Source of the DNA: Phytophthora quininea
Lineage: Eukaryota; Oomycota; Peronosporomycetes; Peronosporales; Peronosporaceae
NCBI GenBank assembly: GCA_011947345.1
Contig: JAAVTG010000075.1
Location: 248,001-312,000, forward strand
Length of the DNA stretch: 64,000 nt
Direction: 5' to 3'
The notes under the pieces were generated by a model. The model had not been told where the DNA came from. It was given only the letters and a program-made list of their open reading frames with translations, and searched no databases. Below are positions 76 to 47,171 of this stretch, one piece after another. Numbering within the stretch: the first letter of the stretch is position 1; each line of letters begins with the position of its first letter. A program made the position numbers and the translations under genes.

Positions 76-955
76 TTGCTCGGTCTCCCCGCGCACCTTC
101 ACGCCACGAGCAACACCACTTTGAGTAAAATGATCTGCAATTGGCGCGTACTCACGTGGAAGTCGTCGACAACGGTGGTGAGCTCGTTCAAAGTGTTCGT
201 GGCTGCCGGTGACCTCGGTGATACCCTACGAACGTTCAGCAGGCTCATCGCAGACCGCGGGCTCAACGACATGCCGATCGACGAGCCGTGGTACATCTAC
301 ACGCAGCGTGTACAGCGAAATCGACTTCCGTCGGCTTTGTGAGCGTCTGCGCGGCCACTACAGTCATCGAGGACAACGTGTTGGCCACCACTGGAGATGC
401 CAGCGCCGTGACGCTCGCTATTAACGAGGAGAGCTTGGTCTACGTGTCCGCCTCTGACGCAGATGTGAGTTGCTACGCCATACACGCCAAGGTGCTCAAC
501 TCGGCCAGTCTTCAACTCGATGTGACGAGTGTGGTGGTGAGTGACGAGGCCGATTTTGGCGCGAACACGTCGGGCAACAGCAAGCTCTTGTCACCGACAC
601 TGTCGGTAAATCAATTACCTGACCGTCTAAGCGCACAACGACGGCCAGATCTGCTTCAACTTGGACGAGATCGACTCTGACCATGTGAACGGCGGAGACA
701 GCACCAAAATCTCCTTCCCCAACTCCGCCACGAGCTTCAGCGCCGCCACTAGAGGCTTCTCGTGCACTCGCCACAGCGTTCCATCTCGCGCTCCAGGCTT
801 AGTCTCTAACAGATCCACTGATACATCGTCCAGTAGCTCTTCAACCTCCATGGTGTCCCCAGGAGTGCCAGCTACCGAAACGAGTGTGCACACTATGTAT
901 CGTCGCTGGTATCCGTCCTCGACCAGCGGCGATGCATATTTACAGTGTGATTACT
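76..955 (+). other. Possible decayed coding fragment
   Basis: Three overlapping plus-strand frames (76-342, 288-680 and 661-978) read in relay and give protein-like stretches, for example FKVFVAAGDLGDTLRTFSRL followed by ATTVIEDNVLATTGDASAVT. The relay needs at least two frameshifts. I do not recognise the product. The fragment lies immediately beyond the helicase end of the Helitron relic on the other strand, so it could be a captured gene piece, an old neighbour, or chance open frame. Confidence that it was ever coding is low. Confidence 0.2.
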
Positions 956-2489
956 TCACCTTGCTTGGAGAATCCTAACTGTTTCCAAACTAAGCTGTTC
1001 TAGTCGGGCTTCTTCGTCTATCGCAGCCTGAGACGGATGTGCCCACTGAATAACCTCGTCTGTCAGGGGGTAAGTGTAGCAAAGGCTGCTCGTGATGTCA
1101 CTCGCGACACTAACAAGTATGGCTGTTCCCTTTTGTTTGTCTTGGCACAAGTCGAACGCCACTCCGTCACTATCATACTGTCTAAGGTTTCTCCTTGGAC
1201 CTTGTATATGGTGGAGGCAACAGCACAAGTGAGTGGGAATTGCTGTATCTTCACCGAAAGTGAACGAGAAACGCCATCGACGAACCCTTGTAGAGGAATG
1301 CTGCACGAGCCATAAGCTTGTGTATCGAAAAACAGGGAAAGATATCTGCATCACTGCAACCCAGCATTGCTGTTGCTGATGGACCTCGATGAACGCGGAC
1401 AAGCACAACAGGAGGTGCTACACTGGGCACTTTCACCGTCATATCAGCCACCGTGTCGTGTACTAGTCGGAACGTCGTACCTGGATGGTATACAATCTCT
1501 TCTAAACGCCCTAACGTCCCATTCCCACCAGTTTTGCCGCACGAACGTTCTGGGTGACCTGGATAGGCATTCCAACAATGAGGTCGAGAAATGGGACCAT
1601 TCGACCAAATTTGGAGTCTGGAAGCGCCATGATAGTCCGCACTTCATCGCGACGTAAGGAAGACAATTTTCCTTTAAAATTAGCGACTACTCGAACAGGA
1701 AACTCATCGTGCGGTAGTAGCTTAGCCGCTTTAGAAATGAATAAATTGTTGATAGCTGTTCTGGTTGCGTTATCGGGAGTGACGCATGTGCTAACAGACT
1801 AACAAGCCACGGAACCGTCGAAGACGTTGTCTGCAGCCAAAACACGAGAGTTTATCAGACTCACGAATTCTGGAGTCCAAGTACCGCGACGTGCTTGTTG
1901 ACAACCACGCCCCACTCTGGGTCATTGGCAAAGCGAACATTTTCCGTCAAAATCACAACAGTATTAAATTCACGCTAAATTTGGAATCCTGCTAGCTCAT
2001 TAGCCGTCACATTAGCTTTAGAGGAAGGGTCCTTGTAAAGGGGTTCACCACCAACAGGTGGTAACTGCAAGAAACCCCCACTAACACGATATGAACACCT
2101 CCGAAAGCCACATCAGGCACCTCTTCGCGATTCGCAAGAGTTTATCCAGCTGTGATAGCTGGTATTTTCTCATCATTGATATTTCGTCGATAATGATCAA
2201 GCCAAGGTTGGTTACTTCATCAATTGCCCGCTTTTTCGAAGTTGCAGCAAAAACGCCGCCAGCGTTCTTCCCTCAATCAGTGTTGCAGCTTTGCCGGTTA
2301 GTGCCGTCTTAACAAGGCAGTCAGATCGACTCCAACTCTCGCAAAAGCCTGAACCGCGTCAACTATGCGGCTCTTACCAGTACTGCCTTCTCCTCCCAAA
2401 AACAAGAGCAGCTGCGTCTCGCGCAGAACCGAGCTGAGCGATACATCGTCTTCATTCAATGTTTCTGCGCGTATCCAACGCGGTAACAA
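956..2489 (-). pseudogene. Helitron PIF1-type helicase, broken
   Basis: A Walker A motif, FLGGEGSTGKSRIVDAVQAF, lies at 2298-2489. The block FGRMVPFLDLIVGMPIQVTQ can be read near 1520-1635. The C-terminal helicase motif FPLTCAVASTIYKVQGETLD is at 1063-1254, and the last residues ARLEQLSLETVRILQAR end at 956. The pieces lie in different frames, with large gaps between 1650 and 2300. This would have been the DNA helicase that unwinds the transposing strand. Confidence 0.75.
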
Positions 2490-3405
2490 GGCCCTTCCTA
2501 TTGCCTTGAAGGGGTAATGCTGTCGTTCATTGAGAGTGTTGGCTCAAGAGGTATCAAAAATACTTGCAAAATTCTTAGTTCACGTCGGCGAATGCTTCAA
2601 ACCCGCCGACGGCTATCACTGCATGCTAGGTTCTGCTAAACAACCATCAAGAAGTTCCACCACTGTTGTATCTCTAGCTGCGAACACCGTGGCAGGTATG
2701 GTCGGAGTCAACAAAGCGTTATCAGTACTTTCATCTTTCACGCACTTTTCATGAATTCTACTGACGGCAGATCGGAGGGGCAACAACCAAATGCATCACT
2801 GTCGAAATGCAATCGAGCAGCGTTATCCAGTATGTTACGTCGCCTAAAAGCATCCAGAATGTGAGCTATTGACTGATCTGGAGTTGCTGTTGTCGGGCAG
2901 GAAGCAGGGTCGAGCGTCGAGCTCTCCAAAATCGCGCTGTCGTCATCACCTTGCTCCCATACGTGGGGTAAAGCGCTATCTTCCCCACGCCGTCGTCGCT
3001 GTCTACGTCGGTGGCGTAGAATAGGTCATCGCCGTCATCGTCATCATCACCGCTGGTGCTGCCGTCTGAATCGGTGTTTGTCTTACTTAGAGCTGCTGCT
3101 GACGCGTCTTCCCTCGCGTTTTTGCGCGTTCTACTCCACTGTAAAAATCTTCCATATTATTCATGATATCTTCTACAAATTTGCTCCGCTGTAGTTTCCA
3201 TAGCTTAAAGCACGATATCCACGTTTCCACGTTTGCTCATTTGAGCAGTGTGATGCACCGATCAGGTCGTATAAGCATCGGAATGGCTTGAAGAGCACCA
3301 GCGCCAGCACAGCATATTTCCAGCGTTTTTCACTTGATGATCTTCCTTCGTTCTGGGGGAGCCGAAAGCTTTGGATAACAGAAGCGACCTCTTCGTATCT
3401 CCTTC

Positions 3406-4797
3406 CTAGACAGTGAGTTTTGTGTAGCGGATGGGAGTCACGAAAACGCAGTTGCGAGTTCGTCCTATTCTCGTGTTTTTTCTGAAGTACCAACTTGCAA
3501 ACTCATATAGATTTGTTTCCTCCAACGTCTTCGGGCGAAATATATAATCATCAAGATAAGACACCGCCCGGAACTCGCGCCTCCCAGAATCGCCACTAGT
3601 ATCAACCAAATTGCACGAATATTCATCCGATCGCATAAGCTGCCTAACCACCTCTCCGAGGGGCAATGACACACATCGAGTACTAGCATAACAACACGAA
3701 CCGTGATAAAGATAAAAAGCTGCTGGAGGACCAGCGATTTCGTGGTGATTGGTAAGGTTGTAGATCATCGAAGCCACGCGCTTTCGACTCATAGCTAACC
3801 GGTCACCTTCCGATCCTGTAGTCATAACTTCAGCAGCTTCACGTAGTTGCCGTCTTTTTAATGCTGCCACGGCGACTTGGGAATCGAATTGCTTTTGGGG
3901 CTTGGTGATGTACTTACAGCAGTAATGAATTCTCTCCGTGGCGTCAATGCCGCCAAGTAGGATCTGTATGTCCTGATTGCACTTAAAGGTGGCCACGAGT
4001 TCATAATTGAAGCCATTCATGAATTCGTGCCCCATGGTTCGCCATAATTCTACTCCGGATGATTCGAACGACGTCTGGTCCACACGAGGCCGGAGGAAAC
4101 GGTATCGCAGTAGGTGTCGTTTGGAGTAACTCCAGAGTGTTTGAAGCAGCTTGCTGTGTGGCACCATAGGTGCTGGTTCAGCAGCGTTGCCAAAACGGAT
4201 ACCATGTAGTCTTGACTTTGCTGGGACATTCTTGCATCAAACGTAGATGGGGGCGACACCTCCAGCAACCGCGTTAGACTGTCATTTCGAAATGGGTATC
4301 GTCTGCTTTGTACAGCAGCATTTGCCGTGTGTTCGCCCGACGTAACAACTGAGAAGTAAGCAATTCACTCTCGCGAATACACGTATCACTACAAAACCTC
4401 ACGTGGGCAGATTCTCGGTCGTTAATTACGTTCAATGCATGCTGCTTTGTGTCTCGGCAGATCTTCTCCGTGGTTGCCTGGACTTCGACTTCACAACTGG
4501 ACAGCGGTCTCTCCCAAACTGGCCAGTACTCTGGCCGTGCCCCTAGCAAAGCGCTGCGAATGAGATGCTGCGAGCTGAAACGGGTATTGCATCGGCTGCA
4601 TTCCACCAATGCGGGCTCTGAGGGCTTGCAGCAATATCTTGCATTTGAAGTAGCTCCCCCAACGGATCTTTTATCGCCTCCTCTGATATAGGTAGCCCCA
4701 CAAGCTCATGAAATCCAGCTCCGCAACCAGAGCATCGAAACTCATCTAACGAAATTGACAGGTCGTTTCGTACAATACTGTTGGCATATAATGTCAC
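3406..4797 (-). pseudogene. Helitron polyprotein, central region
   Basis: The 3406-4167 frame encodes 253 residues, including GHEFMNGFNYELVATFKCNQ, DATERIHYCCKYITKPQKQF and EIAGPPAAFYLYHGSCCYAS, all characteristic of the Helitron protein between Rep and helicase. The overlapping 4050-4268 frame supplies the preceding NQHLWCHTASCFKHSG block after a frameshift. The frames at 4274-4797 are Cys-rich (FRCSGCGAGFHELVG and CSRCNTRFSSQHL) and look like a damaged zinc-binding section of the same protein. Confidence 0.7.
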
Positions 4798-5104
4798 TTT
4801 TTCACGAAATATATCTCCCTCAGGAGATTCTAAAAGCTTCCTGACCGCAACTGAGTTAGTAGGACAGGTTTTAGCCAGATGAGCACGTGAATGTGCAAAT
4901 TACCTCGGCTCTGACTTTCTACCATTCCGAAGTAGGCCTTTACATCACCGAGCAACCCCGAAATGGCAACCTTTTTCTTGTCTGCGGATCCATGCCGAGT
5001 GCGTAGCGAATAAATGCATCCACGTGCCTCATCAATAGACGCTGACGCGCAGTCATTCTGACGATTGACTTCTCGTAGTTCAGACTTTGTGGTTAGGCGA
5101 GCTT

Positions 5105-5726
5105 CTAGTGAATCGAAAAGGTCTTCACGAACGAAACCCCAGTGTACTGCGCCAACACCTGTGAATTATCCGAATTTGGCGTTAAGGTCACGAACAATAC
5201 TGGTTGCCCGTACCTAGTCTGATATGAAAACGCCTTGTGGCGACATTGAGCCCTCTCGGCATTGCTGCCCCATACGGACCTCGATCCGATCTCAACCGAC
5301 TTCAGAAACTTTTGAGCGACAGAATTATCTGGCGGTCTCCACGGCAAACACCCTTGACGCCGCCGTTCGTTTTCAAGCAGAGCAATCCTAACTGCTCACT
5401 GGTGAGACTGTCGTATCCTTCAAAATGCTGCGGAAACCGTTGACAGCGAACGTGGTGTTAAATAAACGTATTTCTTAAAGAGATCCTGTCGAATGCAACC
5501 AACGCGAATAATTCATCCTCTGCGAATTGTCGCTTGCTGAGCATCGTGTAATACTTGATGCATTCTTGGACAGACACCTTGACGCGCCGATGCTCTCCCG
5601 GGTGGCCTCGTCTAAATGGAAATAGGTGCGGGAATACACGCGCAACCAACGTTCCTGAAATATCACTTGCAATGTAGTTGGATCTGCGAACCTCGAATTC
5701 ACGTTCACGCTATTCTCTAGTGGCAC
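5105..5726 (-). pseudogene. Helitron-like N domain and start of Rep segment
   Basis: The frame at 5458-5649 reads FPHLFPFRRGHPGEHRRV and then YYTMLSKRQFAEDELFALVA, which is the conserved Helitron-like N region. The frame at 5475-5726 supplies the preceding residues after a frameshift. The frame at 5105-5347 carries RYGQPVLFVTLTPNSDNSQV, the FVTLTPN signature at the start of the rolling-circle initiator region. Stops and frame changes between them show that no intact protein is made. Confidence 0.75.
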
Positions 5727-14484: not shown

Positions 14485-15333
14485 CTAGTGGAAGCAGCGT
14501 AGCGTGACACTGAGTCTGGGCTCTCGACATTTGGCCATCTTCGGTACAGCGTGCTTGTGCGTCTTTGCGTGGTGCCGCCCATGATCAGCAAGTCTCCGTC
14601 TCCCATCTGCAGCTCCAGTCGACTCACAGCCTTTTCGTCTTTCGGAGCATTCTTGGGGTTTTCTTCGTGAATACAAAGCGGCGAGTAGCCCCCAGTGACA
14701 GCGCCACGATAGGAGACCCAGCGATCATATCTTGCTCGTCGTCGGCGTGAGGTCCGATGTAATGGTATCCGTTAGCGTACCAATTCACAAGTCCGCCAGT
14801 AAGTTTCGAGTTGTGCGTGTCTGGGTCTTCTACGATGTGCTTCATGTGCTCGACAGCGTGCTCCAGTCCCCGTGGGAACTTTGGCTGAGCTTCGTACGTC
14901 ATGCCAGAGAATCTGTAGCTGCCCATTTCCCACACAGCATCTGGAACCTTGGGATCTTGGTCGGCTTGCCAAACATCATGATGGACTCGTAGTGCTCTGG
15001 GTGGGCGTCCCAAGCTTCTTTGAACATGGCAGACCACGTTGGACGTTCTTCATCTTCTGACGGGCTATCGTGCTTGAAAACTTGCTGATACCAGTGAGGA
15101 ACATGGTAGACCCAGCTGGAGTGGTCCGTCGTTAGGTACGAAATGGTTGCGTCTTGATCGAAGAGCTGCTCCGCGGTGTCTGCTGGGAGATGGGCGTACT
15201 CAACGCCTGCCTTCTTCACACTACCCACTACACGATCGAGTGAGAAGTCCTCCACTGCGGTTGATGTCGTCTTAACACGCTTGACGGGGCTCTGATGAGG
15301 GTTTACTGAACGCTTTGTCTTCTTCGTGGCCAT
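14485..15333 (-). pseudogene. AlkB-like 2OG/Fe(II) dioxygenase, frameshifted
   Basis: This gene is AlkB-family (ALKBH2/3-like); such enzymes oxidatively remove alkyl groups from DNA or RNA bases. It starts at MATKKTKRSV (15333). The body carries IMMFGKPTKIPRFQMLCGK, YRFSGMTYEAQPKFPRG and NWYANGYHYIGPHADDEQDM, which holds the iron-binding HxD. It continues with IVALSLGATRRFVF, LELQMGDGDLLIMGGTTQ and HAVPKMAKCREPRLSVTLRC, which holds the distal His and the 2OG-binding Arg. All catalytic residues survive, but frame changes near 14930, 14650 and 14575 are needed to read it. No plausible intron explains them. It is either a very young pseudogene or an intact gene with assembly indels. It converges on the F-box gene, with 66 bp between stops. 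Confidence 0.75.
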
Positions 15334-15519: not shown

Positions 15520-17528
15520 TTATTCAATGGTGAACCCCGTGATGTCCATCTGCACGATGAGCTTGACATACTCCCCTAGCACCTCCTTCGAGTTGTAGAT
15601 CGGCAGGTCCAGGCGGTTGAAGCACGTGTGCGCCTTGGGGAACAAGAAGGACTGGTTCGTGCCAGCAAACGCGACGTTGAAGCGGCGAACGCGACCATCA
15701 CTGCTGATCAACCCCTTGAAACCTTGTGCAGGAACACGACTCGTGCCCGTGGCGAACTGCAGCAATCGGACACGATCTTCGTTCTTCATTTCCTCCACCA
15801 CCTCCCAGAACCACTCAATGTTGTTGAGCTCGAGCTCAGTCGGGAAGTTGTGCGTGAAGAACTTGAAGTCAGTGTGCTTCTTCCAGTCTTCCACATCGAT
15901 GGAAGGCACGCCGCACATAAGTAGCTCTAGCTCCTGGTAATCGAACAGCTTCAGCAGACCCTCCGGCACCACGTCATACAGCGCGGTTAGGAACGCTAGC
16001 AGCTGGTCGCTCACACTACCCAAGACATGGTATTTGAACAGCGCGTCCAAGTAGCGCATCCGATTCTCGCTCGTAACATCGATGTTGGCGCCGCCTTCGA
16101 CAAGCTCTACGACTTCCGGTTTGCCGTCCACGATACGCGTCGCTGTAAAGTCCAAACACAGAGGCTCAATGTCGTCAATCTTCTTCACCATCACTGCGCT
16201 ATTGTAAATTTCGTCGTCCAAGAATTGCAAATCCGAGAACGAGATCGGCACGCCGAGGATGTGCTTCAAGAAAGGCAGAGCCAAATGCACGGGCAGCAAG
16301 TGCTCTTCTAGAATCGCCTTGCCCACCAACCGTCCAGCGAACTCAAAGTACGCCAAGTGGTCCTCTTCTCCGAGCAGGGCGTCCGAACTGCCGTTAATCC
16401 AGTAGCTGCGCTCGTCGCCGACCGTGCTCACGAACATGCCAAAGTCCGGGTCGAACATTTCGGAAAAGAGAAGCGTGAACCACTCGCGCATCACTCCGCC
16501 AGCATCCAGCGCCGGTTCTCCATCAAACACCACGCGCCACCGCTGCCGTAATTGATAGGGCTTCATGTCCGCCACCAACTCGAACGAGTCCTGCAACAAG
16601 TGGTCTCTTCGCACCACCAATTCGGCATGTCCTGACTCCCACGGCAACCACAGTCGATGGATTTCGGTTGAAAACCACCGGATCTTATCCGGGAACGGCA
16701 AGTTGTGCACTCCTTCGAGGTTCATGATCAGCTCCGAGCTGCCGGCTCCGTCCAAAATGTTAATCCGGTAATGGAAATCCGTGGCCACCACGTCGCTCTC
16801 GTTCAGCACTAATTGTCCCAAAGAATCCCGTACGCGGATGTACCCCACCGATAAATTGCTGTCTCTCTCCGTCGAGTCCAAATACCTGCTGAGTGACATG
16901 CGTCCTCCCGGATCGCTCTCGAAGGACTCTCGGTTGGATCTGGAATACCTCTTGGACTCTTGTCGGACCCATCGATGCAATCCATCCGTAGTCGGCATTC
17001 GTTTCCATTGCTGTCGTCGGCTAGCTGCCAATTGCAACTTGCTGAGTTTGGGTGCAGCCTTCTTCTTCTTGGCTGCCTTGGACGGTCGTCTTGAAAACTC
17101 GAAGCTTGGTCTGCCAAAGGAGCCGCCAATGGCGTCGTCTGCATGGGACGACGAGAAGGCTTCGGTCTCTCAATACGACCCATTCGTTGGGCCGTACTGC
17201 TGCTGAGACTGCTCCGAGTGAAACTGTGGCGACCGCTCTTCTTACTGCCGGCGATCTCCCGGTCGGCGCCGCGCAGTGTCTGGCACAAGTCGCAGAGCTT
17301 GCGCTCCGGGTGGTTGAGGAATTTGCAGACGCCGCAACGCCACAGCGCCTGCTCCATGAAACTGTCGTTGAGCTCCTCGCGGTAGACATCGGCCGGCTCC
17401 TGGATGAACACGAGCGACTCGCGCTCGCGCTGCACTTGGATATGGCGGCAGAAGAAGAGCAGCAGCAGGATGGCGCCCACGAAGAGCAGCACGCTTATAG
17501 CCACGACCACCGCCAGGCCCGCGGTCAT
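15520..17528 (-). CDS. HECT E3 ubiquitin ligase with N-terminal membrane segment and RanBP2-type zinc finger
   Basis: The ATG at 17528 opens a protein with a strong membrane anchor (LAVVVAISVLLFVGAILLLL) at about residues 4-27 and a RanBP2-type finger (WRCGVCKFLNHPERKLCDLC). The second frame, 17037-15520, holds a full HECT domain: RQRWRVVFDGEPALDAGGVM, FEFAGRLVGKAILEEHLLPV, FTHNFPTELELNN and the active-site Cys in FPKAHTCFNRLDLP, ending GFTIE. Between about 17220 and 17050 the frames do not join: a missing base near 17225 plus an in-frame TGA, or an unresolved intron, must lie there. Expected product about 670 residues, acting at a membrane to attach ubiquitin. Confidence 0.8.
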
Positions 17529-17776: not shown

Positions 17777-17784
17777 GTTATGTA
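17777..17784 (+). repeat. Target site duplication, left copy, MULE-A
   Basis: The 8 bases GTTATGTA directly before the left terminal inverted repeat are repeated exactly at 21298-21305, directly after the right one. This is the footprint of insertion expected for Mutator-like elements (usually 8-11 bp). Confidence 0.85.
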
Positions 17785-17839
17785 GGGACTGTCTAAGGAG
17801 GGCCATTTGCGGGCAAGGCCATTTCAAGAGAACGGACGA
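17785..17839 (+). repeat. Left terminal inverted repeat of MULE-A
   Basis: 55 bp, an exact reverse complement of 21243-21297. The word GGCCATTT occurs twice, spaced by 17 bases, and the same double word occurs in the ends of MULE-B. It is a candidate transposase binding site. Confidence 0.92.
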
Positions 17840-18089
17840 CAAAACACGATGTGGCACGCGACGTCTTCAACACTAAAGCGGGTCCGTCCCAAGATGCCGT
17901 TCCCGCTACAAAATGAAATAACAAATCTTGTTAGCTGGAGTACAAATTCTAGGATAAGCACAGTGGTGAAATGAATGGCGGGTGGTTAGCGGATTTAGCA
18001 GTACGGCACTACAGCTTTAGTTTTTATAGCTCACTCACGTTTCCAAGCCTCTCAGCGAAAACTTGCACCACCATCACCAGTCATCTAAC

Positions 18090-20163
18090 ATGGTAAACCT
18101 CAGCACCTCTCCTGACATCAACTTAACCATCAGCCCCGTTGAGATTTTTATTCTTCCTCCTCCGGAAAAAGTCTACCAGTCGGAAGCCAAGGCTTTTGCG
18201 GCTATTCACGAGTGGACAAGAGAGCACCATTACAACTTAACTAAGCGACGAGCATTTTACTCGGATGAAGCGAAGACTGCTGTGTGGAAACGAGGTCTTG
18301 ATTGTGACCGCTCAGGAGGGCCAAAGGAAACTCAACAACTCGCTTGTGAAGATCGTGTGCGCACTATGCGAGGCTCAAAGCGTATGGGGTGTAAAATGAA
18401 ACTAGTCGTCAGGGCTGTCAGCAAGGACGATCCGCATGGACCGTGGGAAATAGTTCACACACGCAATGGCAGTGGCATTCACAACCATCCTGCCTCAGAG
18501 GACGCTCACGTCCATGCGTGTCACCGACAACGCGCTGCCGTCGCTCTTACTTTTTCGACAACTGATTCTATTCAAAGGCTGGTTGAAGCTCAGACTGCTG
18601 CGGGTGTGTCTGTTGCGAGCATTCGTGCGACTCTGAACCAAGCCGATCCCGGCTCATTTGTGACACCAAAGGATATTGCGAACACGAAGAATGCATTTCG
18701 ACGCCAGGAAATGGCCACACAAACTGTGATGGAAGCCCTGTTCTCTAGCCTTGAAAACCAAGGATTTTTCTTTCGTCACGCTACCAACCCGGCTACACAA
18801 GAACTGCGGTACTTGTTCTGGGCGCATCCTGCAACTGCCGCGGTTTATCGCCGTCACAACGACGTCCTGGTAATGGATTGCACGTACAAGACTAACATAC
18901 AAGCTCCCGTTACTAAACAATATTGCTGTAACTAGATTCAATATTGCTCTGCCTGTTGCTCAGTGTTGGCTGCCTGGAGAGAAAGAAGAGGATTACGTGT
19001 GGGGTTTAAACATGCTGCGGATTTTCATGATTGAACTGGGTGTGGGCTTACCTAGTGTGATTCTTACCGATCGAGAGCCGGCGTGCATGAATGCAGCTGA
19101 TCGCGTTTTTCCTGGCGTCCCTGCCATGGTGTGCCGATGGCACATGATCAAGAACGTGGAGGCTATGGCTCGCAAAACACTTGGTCAAGTCTCCGTGGTA
19201 GATCCTGTCACTGGACTAAAACGAAAGGAGAATACGTGGGAGACTGACGCAATCATGGTTGTATTTTACAGCGCTGTGGAAGCTCTCACCGAAACAGAGT
19301 TCAGCAAACGATGTGATGAAATTAAGAAGAACAATTTGTACTTGTCAGCATACCTGGATACAAATTGGTGGAAGTACAAGGAGCGAATTGTTAAAGCGTG
19401 GACAAACAGCTATCAGCACTTTGGCGTTCGCGACATATCCATTGTTGAAGGTACACATGCAAAGTGTAAGACCTGGCTCCGTAGTAGTAGAGGTGATCTT
19501 TACACGGTATACAAGAGCCTGTTGCCGTGGTGGCAGGGTGCTGCTTCTGACACTCAGTTGCTTTCAGCACGCAATGCTGTTATTACGCCGTTTGTACTTC
19601 AACCAAGTCGGTATGCAGCAGTGGTCAGGGTCATCAGTGTGTATGCACTCACAGCAACGGAAAGTCTCTGGCAAGATGCATCCAAAATCGTGCACAATCA
19701 CGTTCAACAGTCTCTGTGCTCCGGCAGCTTTCGATCAGTTAACGGAAGGCCTTGCTTGCACGACCTCATCGCCATCATCAAGTCTAACGGACAGCTGCGA
19801 CTACAGCCTGCAGATTTTGCAAAGCACTGGTGGATCAACAGATATGTCAATCCGCAAATGTTTTCTAGAGTTCTCGAGCCAGCCAATGTCTCTACAGCCT
19901 CTCGGGCAATCACACGCAATACACCGCATCGCCTAAACGCTGGTGTTAATGGTACAAGACGGGAGCCTACCTTCAGTGAAAGGGTTAATCAAAACCATCC
20001 AGCGACGCCGCCATTGTCTTCGTGGAAGGGATATGCCGATGTAGTAGCGCTTCCAGCTACAGCCACTACGCGTTCGGCCGGTGTCTATCAAAACGTCGCA
20101 TTCGAGGAAGCGTTTGTTCCTCCTCGTTCATGGGGATATGCTGGTGAAAACGGATACGCATAG
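18090..20163 (+). CDS. MULE transposase with FAR1-like DNA-binding domain (one frameshift)
   Basis: The ATG is at 18090. The N-terminal part (MTKRRAF-type block, VWKRGLDCDRSGG, RMGCKMKLVVRA, NGSGIHNHPASEDAH) has the C...C...HxH pattern of FAR1/WRKY-GCM1 DNA-binding domains. The DDE catalytic core follows: first Asp in VLVMDCTYKTN, second Asp in PSVILTDREPACMNA, then MVCRWHMIKNVE, and the Glu in SIVEGTHAKCKTWLRSS. A frameshift near 18897 splits it: the first frame ends at 18934, and the second continues from TRFNIALPVAQCWLP. The paralogue at 45-46 kb shows the expected join (TYKTNKYTLPLL), so one or two bases are wrong there. The C-terminus (GYAGENGYA) is intact. About 690 residues if read through. 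Confidence 0.88.
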
Positions 20164-20221
20164 AATAAAACTAATAACAACTCCAACCTCTCAGCCTTTC
20201 AACCTTGTTATTGACTACGAG

Positions 20222-21067
20222 CTAATTAGTAACCCGAAGTTTCTTATGCGGTCGTGAAATGTGAGTTCGGTAGGAACTGGGCTTCTCGTCCGCTCGTCCG
20301 CAGACACAGCAAACCAGTTTTCCCATCGGCAGTGGGTCATTTTCACGCTTACGCTTTTCCTTGTTTTCCGCGCTGCGAGGGTTCTCGATGCAAAATCTGC
20401 GATGCTTCCTCATCTTGTTGCTCTCCACCATGCGAAGGCCACAATACTGGCAGTCAAACGTCTTCGGCAGCACACTGGAGACAATGTCTGGCTTTCAGCG
20501 CATTCCTTTAAACGCGAGATAGCAGTGGATACGGTAGTTGGTAGAGCTGTAGGAGGCACCGCAGTGGTTTAAATCCCCTCGGAAAATAACACAGAATCCT
20601 ACCGGGATATCAATTACACGCGCCTTGGAGTCGTCACGGACCGCAAAGCATCCTTCAAAGACTTTCAACTTCGTGTTCTCCTGAAAGGCGAATATCATGC
20701 TGGCAGGAATACGCCCTTTGCGGCGCTGAGCTTCAAGAACGCTTGGCGGGTAATCTTGATGCGGTTCCTGTTCGTTCCTGCCACGGAGCGAGCGTAAGTA
20801 GGAGAATTCCCGAGGTGTCCATGCCGAATTGATGCAACTGGCGCTGTCCAGGAGCCCACGCCGCAGCTCTGCAACGGCCCCCGACGACGTGACTCTCGAC
20901 TGGGCTCGAAACTCGTCGTCGCTCTCTCCACCTACATTCTCGAAGACAGACTCGTAGCTCCTAGCCTCGGCCTCACGCTGGAGAGAAGCGATAACGCTGT
21001 CCACGATGCCTAGATACACGACTTGATAGCCCCTCGGAGGGAGGCGGACTATCAGGCTGGGCGCCAT
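20222..21067 (-). CDS. MULE-borne 2OG/Fe(II) dioxygenase with C-terminal zinc fingers (nonsense codon)
   Basis: The likely start is MAPSLIVRLPP at 21067, aligned with the start of the MULE-B copy. After about 110 poorly conserved residues comes a compact dioxygenase core: NEQEPHQDYP (iron ligands HxD), RIPASMIFAF, RVIDIPVGFCVIFRGDLNHC (distal His) and STNYRIHCYLAFKG (Arg expected to bind 2-oxoglutarate). A TGA at about 20495 follows KGMR; in MULE-B the same position is Trp. Beyond it the frame stays open: DIVSSVLPKTFDCQYCG, MRKHRRFC, VCCVCGRADEKPSSYRTHIS, two C2H2-type fingers. Substrate unknown; fused fingers suggest nucleic acid binding. It could be a truncated but folded enzyme, or be read through. 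Confidence 0.8.
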
Positions 21068-21089
21068 TTCTGAACTGGTAGCGGGCACA

Positions 21090-21215
21090 CTTTGGTGGAA
21101 CGGGCACGTTTCCTTCTTATCTAGAGTTTTGTATGCCGCAATGAAGCGGGCACGGCTCGGTGGGACGGGCACGTTTGCCTCTTCTATAGAAGTTTGTATT
21201 GTGCGGTGAGCAACA
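21090..21215. repeat. Subterminal imperfect tandem repeat in MULE-A
   Basis: Two diverged units of about 60-70 bp lie between the cargo start and the right terminal repeat. Each contains ACGGGCACGTTT, then a TCT-rich word, then TTTTGTAT or TTTGTATTG and a GCGG/GCAATG word. The core CGGGCAC occurs four times. The same CGGGCAC core recurs just inside the right end of MULE-B (near 47050). Candidate promoter or protein-binding repeats. Confidence 0.55.
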
Positions 21216-21242
21216 TTTTTCTGTCAAGACGTTCAGAATCCA

Positions 21243-21297
21243 TCGTCCGTTCTCTTGAAATGGCCTTGCCCGCAAATGGCCCTCCTTAGACAGTCCC
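21243..21297 (-). repeat. Right terminal inverted repeat of MULE-A
   Basis: 55 bp, perfectly complementary to the left repeat and followed directly by the second target duplication copy. Confidence 0.92.
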
Positions 21298-21305
21298 GTT
21301 ATGTA
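21298..21305 (+). repeat. Target site duplication, right copy, MULE-A
   Basis: GTTATGTA, identical to 17777-17784. Confidence 0.85.
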
Positions 21306-43404: not shown

Positions 43405-43475
43405 GGGCATTACTAAGGAGAGCCATTTCTGAGAAAGGCCATTTCCAGAAAAAGGCCGAACGACTGGGCTATGCA
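43405..43475 (+). repeat. Left terminal inverted repeat of MULE-B
   Basis: Begins GGGCATTACTAAGGAGAGCC. It pairs with 47104-47171 with a few mismatches and one gap in an A run. Confidence 0.8.
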
Positions 43476-43567
43476 CTAGATACAGTCCACACCTCTGGTG
43501 TACATCGCTCAGCATACTAAAGCCAAGTAAAGCGCGTTCAGTGTGTCCGTTGCATGTCAGTCCTGAA

Positions 43568-44415
43568 ATGACGCCCAAACCGAAAAGCGTGCTGCCGCCC
43601 TGCGGCTACATCGTTGCCGATCTAGGCTTCGTCCTGACGTACTGCGCGCGCTGCAGCTTCACGCGAATGAGCGCGAGTACATGCCGGCGCTCAAGGAAGT
43701 AGGAGGCGTACAAGACGACCCACATCGACTGCAGTCTCGAGTGAAAAGTCCATCGGGAGCGATCGCTAAAGTGCGGATCACTTTGCGCGCGCTATGCTCA
43801 TGTCTTGAGCCCGACTGAGTTCATGCGGTGTTCTCTTTTCTGCTATCACTGGAGGGCGGAGAAGAACAGGAGCCTCACCAGGATTATCCAGCCAAGGTGA
43901 TCGCGGATGCGAAGAGCCATTGCCAAGGACGGGTTCCAGCTAGTATGGTACTAGCGCTCGAGAAGGACACGCAACTGCGCGTGTCTGACGGGTGCTTTGA
44001 GGAGCGTGACGAAGCTACAAGTCGCGTTGTCGACATTCCAGTTGGCTTTTGCATCATATTCCGTGGCAATCTCATTCACAACGCAATAAGCTACGCAAGT
44101 GTGAACCGTCGACTGCATTGCTACCTGTCGTATCGAGGCTTGAAGTGGGAAACTGATATCGTTTCGAGTGTTCTTCCTGGGCACGGCACATGCCAACACT
44201 GCGGTATCAAGCTCGAAAGCTCCGAAGAAATTCGGGCGCATCGCCGATACTGTACTGACAATCCCGCCTCGAAGAAGAACCGGCAGACGCGACGTCGTAC
44301 TGACAACAAGACTGGGAGATGGAAGTGCGATGTTTGCGGGAAAGTTTACAAAAAGAGCGGATCGTACCGTTCTCATGTTTTTCGGGGACACACTAAGAAA
44401 CAAAAACCAATGTAG
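43568..44415 (+). CDS. MULE-borne 2OG/Fe(II) dioxygenase with C-terminal zinc fingers (N-terminal frameshifts)
   Basis: The ATG at 43568 (MTPKPKSVLPPCGYIVADLG) aligns with the start of the MULE-A copy, but two frame changes (near 43635 and 43810) break the N-terminal third. From 43828 an open frame of 195 codons holds the enzyme core: EEQEPHQDYP (HxD), VDIPVGFCIIFRGNLIHNAI (distal His), SVNRRLHCYLSYRG (2OG-binding Arg), then Trp where MULE-A has a stop. The fingers follow: GTCQHCGIKLESSEEIRAHR and WKCDVCGKVYKKSGSYRSHV, spaced by a basic linker (KKNRQTRRRTDNK). Core and fingers are undamaged although the element's transposase is dead. A shorter start at about 43828 (TTC-rich leader) is possible. 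Confidence 0.8.
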
Positions 44416-44759: not shown

Positions 44760-46890
44760 ATTCGAGTAGGAGCCGCTCGCGCGAGGTCTCTATTGATCCA
44801 CCAGTGTAAATCAAAATCTTGCGGAGTTAAATACCGTTACCCGTTTGATTCTGTTATTGTGATAAGTTCGTGAATACAAGGGCGACCGTGGACGATCCTG
44901 AACACACCAGAGCACACATCGCGATCCAAGCGATTGAAAACTATAGCCCGTGCCTCCCCACGAAGTGTGTTTGAATGAGATCCCAAACAGATATGATACG
45001 GGTCACTGTACCATACCGATTGCCTTGAAGTAGATAAGGGACTCGAACAGAACTCCGCTGCGCTAAGAGTCTTGTAGAAGATGCAGCAGCATTCCACCAG
45101 GGTAGTAAACAGTTGTAGACGGTGTATAAATCTCCACGGCTCCCGCGAAGCCAACTCTTGCATTTAGCATGCGTTCCCTCAACAAAACTAGTGTCTCGAA
45201 TACCGTGATGTTGATACCTGTCTGTCCACGCCCCAACAATTCGAGTCTTGTACTTCCACCAGTGCTGATCTAGATAATCTGATAATGTTGAGCTTAGAGA
45301 TCTTAACTCGGCGCGATTGTTTTCGAGCTCCTCTTCGGTACGAGAGTCGACAGTTGAGTAAAATTTAGCCATGAAAGTGTCGATCTGCCAGGTATTCTCG
45401 TATTTAGGCTGCCCGGGGATAGGATTTTGCACAGGTACTTGGCCCAGCACTTGTCGAGCCTTCGATAGAACATTTTTGTTCATGTGCCATCTGCATACAA
45501 GCGCAGGAACCCTAGGAAAACACAGTCACAGGCATTCATGGAGGCCAAATCTCTATCCGTGAGGATGACACCAGGTAGACCAACTTGCATCTCTATAAGG
45601 AAATTTTTCAACGTCGTCATACCCCATAGGTAGTCCTCCTCGCGCTCTGTAGGAAGCCAGCATTGTGCAACAGGAAGGACGGTGTTGAAACCAATGAGAG
45701 AAATGCTGCTCAGCAGCGGAAGTGTGTACTTATTTGTTTTGTAAGTAGAGCCCATAGCCAAGACCTCCGGATGGCGTCGAAACTGGCTGAGAGTCCCGGG
45801 ATGAGCCCAAAACAAGTGCAAAATCTGTTGTGTTTCCGGTTCCACTTCCCATCGAAAGTAAAATCCATCCGAACTCAGACGAGCAAATAATGCTTCCATC
45901 ACTGACATTTCCGATAAGTCACGCCGACGAACGTTATTCTTCATGTTTGCAATATCTTGAGGGATAACGAAGGAATTAGGATCCGCCTGAAGTTAACTCG
46001 CCCGAACACTTCCAGCTGAAATACCGACCGCTGTCTGTGCTACAATTAATTCTTGTAAGGACGCAGCTGGAGCAATCTCTGCTGCGGCAGCACCGCGGCG
46101 GTGGTGTCCAGGGTGAACACGAGCGTCTTCAGAAGGAGGATGATTATGAAGACGGCTTCCATTACGTGTGTTCACAATCTTCCACGGACCGTCAGGCTTC
46201 TTCTTGTCAACAGCTCGCAAGACCAATTTCATGCGGCACCCGATCCGCATTGAACCTCTCATAGGTCGCGTCCTTTCATTGTCCATAAAATGCTGAGTAC
46301 ATTTACGTTTTCCGGCACGGTCACAATTAAAACCGCGCTTCCACACACGCCTGGGTTCACTCCCAGTGTAGAAAGCTCGGCGTTTAGTCATGTCAAAACC
46401 GTGGTTCTTCGTCCATGCGTGTAAAGCAGCAATCGCTTTTTCTTCTGACTCGTATTGTTCTTGAGGCGGTGGCAATATTTCGTACATCGGCGTATCAGTA
46501 GCAGCAGACCTGTCTTGAGACCTGTCTTCACCAGGGCTGTCTGAGCCGGAGACCGCTGAACTAGAGCTGGATTCATATCTCGTGTTCTCAAACGCTAAGT
46601 GTGGATCGACACTCTCCAAAGCACCTTGCAACAATCTCATATCCAAGTACGGGGAGAGCTCTTCAATTTCCACAGACGTCGTACTTGGAGGCGAGATGGA
46701 ATCGCCCGACGATTTCGAATCCTCCAAGAGAGGAGACGAGGTGGAATCGCTTGGAGATTCCGAATCTTCCAAGAGAGGACGGAGATCGTGTAGAGAGTTG
46801 GCGAGATCGAGAGCCGAAAGAGTGCTTGAACGGTCTTGGCTTGCCGAAGACGGAGCGTCAGCATTGTGTAGTGCGGAAATATTCTTCTTT
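44760..46890 (-). pseudogene. MULE-B transposase, broken
   Basis: The order and wording match the MULE-A protein: RRAFYTGSEPRRVWKRGFNC, MRIGCRMKLVLRAVDKKK, NGSRLHNHPPSEDARVH, TYKTNKYTLPLLSSISL, PGVILTDRDLASMNA and TSFVEGTHAKCKSWLRGS. Damage includes a TAA near 45990 where a Leu is expected, a missing T near 45522 that breaks the CRWHM block, and further frame changes near 44940-45000. The first catalytic Asp (VMDCTYKT in MULE-A) reads AMGSTYKT here. The open frame extends upstream of 46772 (DAPSSASQDRSSTLSALDL) with no clear ATG. A TATATATA word near 47032 could be its promoter. Confidence 0.85.
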
Positions 46891-47103
46891 TTTTAGGTTG
46901 TTGTGAGTCTTGGAGGGTTGTGAAAACGGGTTCTTTTTTGGCGGAGGAGTTTTGGCAAATGAACCCGACGCCAACCTTCGAGCGGTATTTCCTCGCCACC
47001 AAAGGCCAAGTACGTCCTCCGTTCAGACCCGGTATATATAGGTCTTGCAACGGGCACATTCTACTGCAACGGACACACTCTTCGAATGTGACACACATGT
47101 CAA

Positions 47104-47171
47104 TGCATAGCCCAGTCGTGCGGCCTTTTCTGGAAATGGCCTTCCTCAGAAATGGCTGTGGCATAGTGCCG
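47104..47171 (-). repeat. Right terminal inverted repeat of MULE-B
   Basis: Partner of 43405-43475. The outermost 18 or so bases are the most diverged. Confidence 0.8.

Follow-up and report, generated by a model that had tools for sequence, protein, structure and literature searches.

A PhyH-like oxygenase gene with zinc fingers, accompanied by a tandem motif, in Mutator-like elements of Phytophthora quininea

Introduction

Transposon-encoded anti-silencing enzymes are, as a kind, already known. In fungi, DNA transposons carry TET/JBP genes, which have been passed between transposase lineages (Kojima 2025, PMC12730594); a 2-oxoglutarate (2OG)/Fe(II) dioxygenase stands there beside the transposase, on unrelated transposase lineages, and has been proposed to counter silencing. 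In plants, VANC is a second protein of the VANDAL Mutator-like elements (MULEs). Experiments have demonstrated its binding as well as a loss of methylation, and its target is a short family-specific motif, tandemly repeated with a single orientation in non-coding sequence (PMC5735166). Other MULEs with accessory genes include Phytophthora MULEs with SET, Mutyl with an antisense second open reading frame (ORF) and Spectre with a C2H2 ORF (PMC6446971). The present work concerns a stretch of 64,000 nucleotides from the oomycete Phytophthora quininea (assembly GCA_011947345.1, contig JAAVTG010000075.1, positions 248,001 to 312,000), in the following termed the window, and in particular a MULE at positions 17785-21297 of it. 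Next to a transposase this element carries a gene for a putative PhyH-like 2OG/Fe(II) oxygenase with zinc fingers, and by sequence comparison relatives of this gene are carried by three MULE transposase lineages, termed A, B and C, accompanied in A and C by a related tandem motif directly upstream.

The fungal TET/JBP transposons are thus matched in the placing of a 2OG/Fe(II) enzyme beside several transposases, but here lineages A, B and C are all still MULE according to Pfam, the host is an oomycete, and the enzyme is PhyH-like with no Tet_JBP match; the abstract of PMC12730594 names no Mutator lineage ("MULE" does not occur in it), and "C2H2" and "zinc finger" are absent from its text. The likeness to VANC extends to the role as second MULE protein and to the kind of motif; moreover, the motif pair of the window copy is doubled through a 65-bp duplication, and tandem growth of this sort has been described for the targets of VANC. 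The oomycete case, however, is known from sequence alone, and VANC is not described as a 2OG oxygenase in the consulted parts of PMC5735166. Unlike the MULEs surveyed in PMC6446971, in the main text of which "oxygenase" does not occur, the accessory gene codes for an oxygenase. The literature searched (Repbase Reports lay outside that search) yielded no account of a 2OG oxygenase carried by an oomycete transposon, in agreement with the original prediction for this DNA, which had been made from the letters alone. New is the combination of enzyme family, host group, finger fusion and a travelling tandem array.

Results

The element (Table 1) consists of two convergent genes between terminal inverted repeats of 55 nt with 100% complementarity, and an 8-bp target duplication, GTTATGTA, is present on both flanks, so that its description as a complete MULE was right in both respects. 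Each gene has its start near one of the inverted repeats, the start codon of the transposase lying 305 bp and that of the oxygenase 230 bp into the element. When the end sequence was compared with the whole genome (87 Mb in 993 contigs), 12 matches were obtained, which were both ends of six copies (one end over 47 of the 55 bp). Since the second gene was present in all six, the window element is not a chance finding; the gene is also kept in related elements, so that its absence from them, which would have refuted the proposal, was not observed. A target duplication of 8-11 bp, which is the MULE criterion, could be read in three of the six copies, namely the window copy C752 (8 bp), C981 (9 bp) and C558 (8 bp).

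The second gene comprises 281 codons in a single frame (21067-20222, minus strand). The HxD...H...R signature claimed for it was recovered as H103-x-D105 and H168, the putative facial triad, and R179, the putative 2OG-binding residue. Two fingers follow in the same frame as predicted, but while the second is of the C2H2 type (CX2C-X12-HX4H), the first proved to be C2HC (CX2C-X12-HX3C). An AlphaFold model of the oxygenase domain has the 2OG/Fe(II) oxygenase fold with its double-stranded beta-helix (predicted local distance difference test, pLDDT, 93), and a rejection of the proposal on grounds of the fold did not come about.

By sequence, the enzyme is PhyH-like. Of 20 relatives, 13 matched PhyH (PF05721), the best of them at E 0.003. 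In further searches P0034, P0071, P0089 and P0173 were at or over the cut-off, and a profile search of the PDB gave DhiD (E 9.9e-5), AndA (3.3e-4) and SptF (1.3e-3), which we take to be members of the phytanoyl-CoA dioxygenase (PhyH) superfamily. The likeness to these enzymes consists in the profile match and the fold; the finger fusion and the carriage by a transposon set the present protein apart, and free-standing environmental relatives are without fingers. The window protein itself did not exceed the Pfam cut-off for PF05721, and its oxygenase part had no family at E <= 10; for this reason it is named PhyH-like and not filed under that family. The first sequence search of the PDB gave finger proteins only, among the 60 of 179 matches listed, and searches of PHROGs and NCBIfam yielded nothing useful.

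The kinship with AlkB or TET/JBP enzymes that had been suggested was not upheld. Neither PF13532 (AlkB) nor PF12851 (TET/JBP) matched the window protein at E <= 10, and neither was among the 25 families listed at E <= 1 for the 20 relatives. The AlkB profile had nine matches in the genome, none at an oxygenase-finger locus; the Tet_JBP profile gave no match there, but equally none in any control genome. AlkB and TET do not appear among the 50 entries listed in fold comparisons with solved structures, which does not exclude them. A viral origin was also considered and dropped: when viral contigs were scanned with the environmental relatives, 66 pattern stretches came up, none of which proved to be a relative by tblastn, although BFVD lists many viral 2OG folds.

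Among the database hits a protein of P. megakarya comes closest (92% identity), and all hits bearing organism names are from Phytophthora (11 species names, P. capsici and P. nicotianae among them). Among 28 relatives outside P0001-P0059, fingers occur in three, all of them Phytophthora by name. Some environmental relatives differ in their N-terminal part: P0080 has a SET domain there (PF00856, E 9.8e-10), P0060 a cysteine cluster, recognised by eye, and P0076 a weak HTH_Tnp_1 match (E 0.13). In the genome there are also finger-bearing relatives that have lost the catalytic residues, with RRDF in place of HQDY and Y in place of the second H, at L055 2722-3606, L056 2309-3154 and L058 2517-3173; similar frames of 282-295 codons recur among the genome-wide oxygenase matches, and close to both L055 and L056 there is a gene that weakly matches DUF6818/Myb-like.

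The oxygenase query had 94 matches in the genome, of which 30 were taken up as loci; gene pairing was read from the best 34 of these 94 and the best 34 of 102 transposase matches. At 18 of the 30 loci a transposase of the window type (lineage A) was present within about 1.5 kb, and at all of the best 16 oxygenase loci this transposase was convergent at a distance of 337-930 bp. Four loci (L033, L035, L036, L038) belong to lineage B, with a MULE transposase (E 9.1e-8) convergent to the oxygenase-finger gene; another four (L025-L028) belong to lineage C, with a MULE transposase of 473 codons (E 2.7e-9). In copy C966 of lineage C transposase and oxygenase are on the same strand, an arrangement shared with C610 (92% over 4.8 kb); of C967 and C950 the analysis covered the oxygenase half. 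The remaining loci (L031, L032, L034, L037) were placed in none of the three. The transposases of A, B and C could be aligned with each other by BLAST only at E >= 0.2 (A and C, E 0.37), while the oxygenases of A and C are 49% identical, which is about as close as the A subfamilies are to one another (51-59%). It follows that the oxygenase gene has passed between MULE lineages.

Inverted repeats were searched for in lineage C and none were found; the ends of lineage B show a weak 44-bp pair (75%, E 0.20), and its boundary rests on one diverging copy (L038). In lineage C, a further ORF without Pfam match lies between oxygenase and transposase (L054 1978-2685, plus strand), and in copy C543 an insertion of about 3.8 kb, which carries its own ORFs, interrupts the oxygenase (L071, about 1653-5479). 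A sister clade of lineage A, with a transposase 48% identical, has no oxygenase; its locus L046 has instead a short convergent ORF (507-824, plus strand) with one weak C2H2 match. Copy C981 (L001/L007) sits inside sequence that matches the inverted repeat of this sister MULE, as in L046, with the target duplication CTCGATCTC.

Directly upstream of the oxygenase gene stands a tandem motif, approximately GTKYCCGYTNCA, with a period of 18-19 bp. The subterminal regions of lineage A have little in common beyond pairs of GTGYCCGYTNCA with a spacing of exactly 19 bp; these occur near both ends, in some subfamilies inside the inverted repeat, and at seven of eight ends the pair surpassed all of 1000 shuffles. 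Searching the genome for GTGYCCGY-N11-GTGYCCGY gave 26 places (control, 1): 20 are at most 161 bp from the 5' side of an oxygenase match, and six are about 2.9 kb off, at the opposite end of that element. One of the 26 places, in C979, had no transposase match listed with it. The pair was absent from all eight loci of the oxygenase-free sister clade, for seven of which the inverted repeats were in hand.

In lineage C, GTTYCCGCTTCA-like units form an 18-bp tandem array in the orientation of the oxygenase, 112-240 bp upstream of the aligned start, and no such array was found upstream of its transposase. A pattern derived from this array occurs at seven places genome-wide (control, 0), every one of which lies upstream of an oxygenase of lineage C, one of them in C543. 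Because lineage C itself had supplied this pattern, the consensus derived from lineage A serves as the independent test: C610, C966 and C543 have 3-4 hits of it per 60 bp, and three were never reached in 215,760 background windows. Single-site counts upstream of degraded copies are weak (shuffles with as many hits: L029, 41/200; L030, 2/200; L031, 19/200), and L034, L037, L033, L038, L055 and L057 have no upstream site within two mismatches. Lineage B possesses a 20-bp tandem array of its own, CAGACCGCACTGCACTCGCC, upstream of the oxygenase at the corresponding place (L049 2179-2252); CACAGA repeats about 21 bp apart are also seen near both of its ends. Since the motif stands beside the gene in lineages A and C and is absent from the sister clade, it follows, as judged from these comparisons, the oxygenase gene rather than the transposase.

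Concerning the state of the copies, the transposase of the window element has the expected MULE domain (PF10551, E 1.2e-6, 29.3 bits, over the cut-off of 27.6) and a FAR1 match under the cut-off (PF03101, E 4.5e-4), but its frame is broken into two ORFs; in C558 the transposase frame is open over 667 codons. Of the six copies, two (C558 and C3) have the proposed fusion of enzyme and fingers open, while in that of the window the two parts are separated by an in-frame TGA (20495-20497); C75 and C170 are broken elsewhere. The second copy in the window (about 43.4-47.2 kb) has an oxygenase-finger gene, as had been noticed, but it is older and broken, with one TGA within the dioxygenase match and repeat arms of 96-97%; zf-C2H2 was found over the cut-off in its ORF 43945-44415 (E 1.8e-6). 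Between subfamilies the proportion of synonymous differences (pS) is 0.77-0.90 and that of nonsynonymous differences (pN) 0.27-0.37; the low pN is a sign of past constraint rather than a formal test, because the synonymous distance (dS) is saturated.

Table 1. Positions of the parts of both element copies in the window
Feature	Position	Strand	Basis and remarks
Target duplication GTTATGTA, left	17777..17784	.	Flank comparison
Terminal inverted repeat, transposase side	17785..17839	+	Six genome copies
Motif pair, 19-bp spacing	17880..17910	+	3 mismatches in 22 scored positions; 0/1000 shuffles as good
MULE transposase, frame broken	18090..20163	+	ORFs 18090-18935 and 19012-20163; Pfam
C2HC and C2H2 fingers, in the frame of the enzyme, past the in-frame TGA	20222..20494	-	Translation; zf-C2H2 E 0.027, under cut-off
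Putative PhyH-like 2OG/Fe(II) oxygenase domain, 190 amino acids	20495..21067	-	Residues, profiles, predicted fold
Motif pair adjoining the oxygenase start codon	21077..21107	-	Motif search
Second motif pair, 65-bp direct duplication of pair 21077..21107	21142..21172	-	Repeat and motif search
Terminal inverted repeat, oxygenase side	21243..21297	-	Repeat comparison
Target duplication GTTATGTA, right	21298..21305	.	Flank comparison
Inverted repeat, second copy, oxygenase side	43421..43475	+	Two arms, 96-97%
Single unpaired motif site GTGTCCGTTGCA	43543..43554	+	192/1000 shuffles as good for a pair
Second oxygenase-finger gene, broken (one TGA in match)	43636..44415	+	Genome match; ORF 43945-44415
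Transposase, second copy, split into several ORFs	44837..46640	-	ORFs, Pfam
Motif pair, transposase side of second copy	47046..47076	-	Motif search; 0 mismatches
Inverted repeat, second copy, transposase side	47104..47157	-	Repeat comparison

Outside the element, a HECT ubiquitin ligase domain is encoded at 15523-17037 (minus strand; PF00632, E 1.3e-81), the MULE lying less than 1 kb from that ORF. A separate gene at 14627-15037 (minus strand) codes for an AlkB-like 2OG oxygenase of host type (PF13532, E 1.5e-12, over the cut-off).

Discussion

The interpretation preferred here, although its chances are put slightly below even, is that the second gene is a selfish MULE accessory gene for a sequence-addressed anti-silencing enzyme. 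The fingers would bring the predicted oxygenase to the tandem motifs directly upstream of its own gene and, in elements with terminal inverted repeats, also to those at the transposase end. There the enzyme would oxidise a repressive mark or a repressor, and the promoters of the element would be kept open, akin to the action of VANC in plant VANDAL MULEs. The choice of sites by the fingers, which had been proposed from the letters, is supported indirectly in that the tandem motif accompanies the gene on different transposase lineages. Candidate substrates are N6-methyladenine (6mA) in DNA, a protein, or RNA. In P. infestans and P. sojae, 6mA is present and 5-methylcytosine (5mC) was not detected, and DNA elements became more active upon removal of a 6mA methyltransferase (PMC6211444). 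The genome analysed here encodes methyltransferase genes of that type, plus two MT-A70 genes. For these two reasons 6mA may be regarded as a candidate substrate, no more. To our knowledge, no PhyH enzyme acts on a nucleobase.

Several observations weigh against an anti-silencing enzyme with its own address. PhyH enzymes of known substrate act, as far as we know, on small molecules. Lineage B is without a motif of the A and C type upstream of its oxygenase, and the older copy in the window, the exception among the eight lineage A ends, lacks the pair at the oxygenase end. For 17 of the best 34 of 102 transposase matches no oxygenase was listed within 3 kb, the other 17 having one. Within the family, changes are mostly nonsynonymous (window copy and C558, 0 synonymous and 11 nonsynonymous; window copy and C75, 8 and 14), as expected of copies that decay after insertion. 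The TGA before the fingers is common to the window copy and C981; transposition has therefore occurred in copies whose fusion is not intact, and this means either help in trans or a gene dispensable in cis. Finally, the motif could be a promoter element.

This last possibility, a promoter or initiator element for a host factor which moves with the gene as a cassette while the fingers bind elsewhere, is rather unlikely but has to be taken seriously: the motif precedes the start region of the oxygenase by 21-240 bp and has the same orientation, and in lineage C the array accompanies the oxygenase and not the transposase. A host promoter element, however, should be expected at host genes too, and the pairs and arrays (single sites were not searched genome-wide) are nearly confined to these elements in the 87 Mb. 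The lineage C array speaks against the idea of a transposase binding site, as at other MULE ends, since the transposase of C is not aligned with that of A by BLAST and yet the motif is found beside the oxygenase only; together with the absence of the pair from the sister clade, this makes such a site distinctly improbable, in spite of the position of the motif near both ends, or within the inverted repeat, in the lineage of the window.

As to the substrate, a protein or RNA (transposase, histone, repressor or methylated RNA) instead of DNA bases is quite conceivable, if somewhat doubtful. The fold ranking places prolyl hydroxylases beside PhyH-type enzymes, so that oxidation of a protein in the manner of prolyl hydroxylases would be equally compatible with the predicted fold; some finger matches are of the double-stranded-RNA type (zf-C2H2_jaz), and the two MT-A70 genes also fit. 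The motif speaks for addressing to DNA, though not for DNA as substrate. That the gene is a captured host gene without function, carried as a passenger in the style of Pack-MULEs, appears highly improbable. Gene capture is frequent in MULEs (PMC6446971), and the oxygenase-gene copies do decay; but the gene was kept in all copies with these ends and in several divergent subfamilies with conserved catalytic residues, pN is low compared with pS between subfamilies, and three transposase lineages carry it, which contradicts both a single recent capture and an absence of constraint between subfamilies.

A further-reaching version of the anti-silencing interpretation would be a new class of eraser: a DNA 6mA demethylase of PhyH fold which its own fingers address to a tandem tag, tag and gene moving between MULE lineages as a cassette, each lineage evolving its own tag (in lineage B, the 20-bp array), in a host lineage without detectable 5mC. 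This is speculative and considered improbable.

Conclusions

Even with a protein or a small molecule as the substrate, several MULE lineages sharing a mobile oxygenase-finger gene and its tandem cis array would be a system undescribed in the literature searched. If the anti-silencing interpretation is true, plants (VANC), fungi (TET transposons) and oomycetes would separately have armed DNA transposons against silencing, the oomycetes with a different oxygenase family plus a predicted address. The long-standing question of which factor takes away or overrides the silencing marks of organisms that have 6mA and no detectable 5mC would thereby become directly testable.

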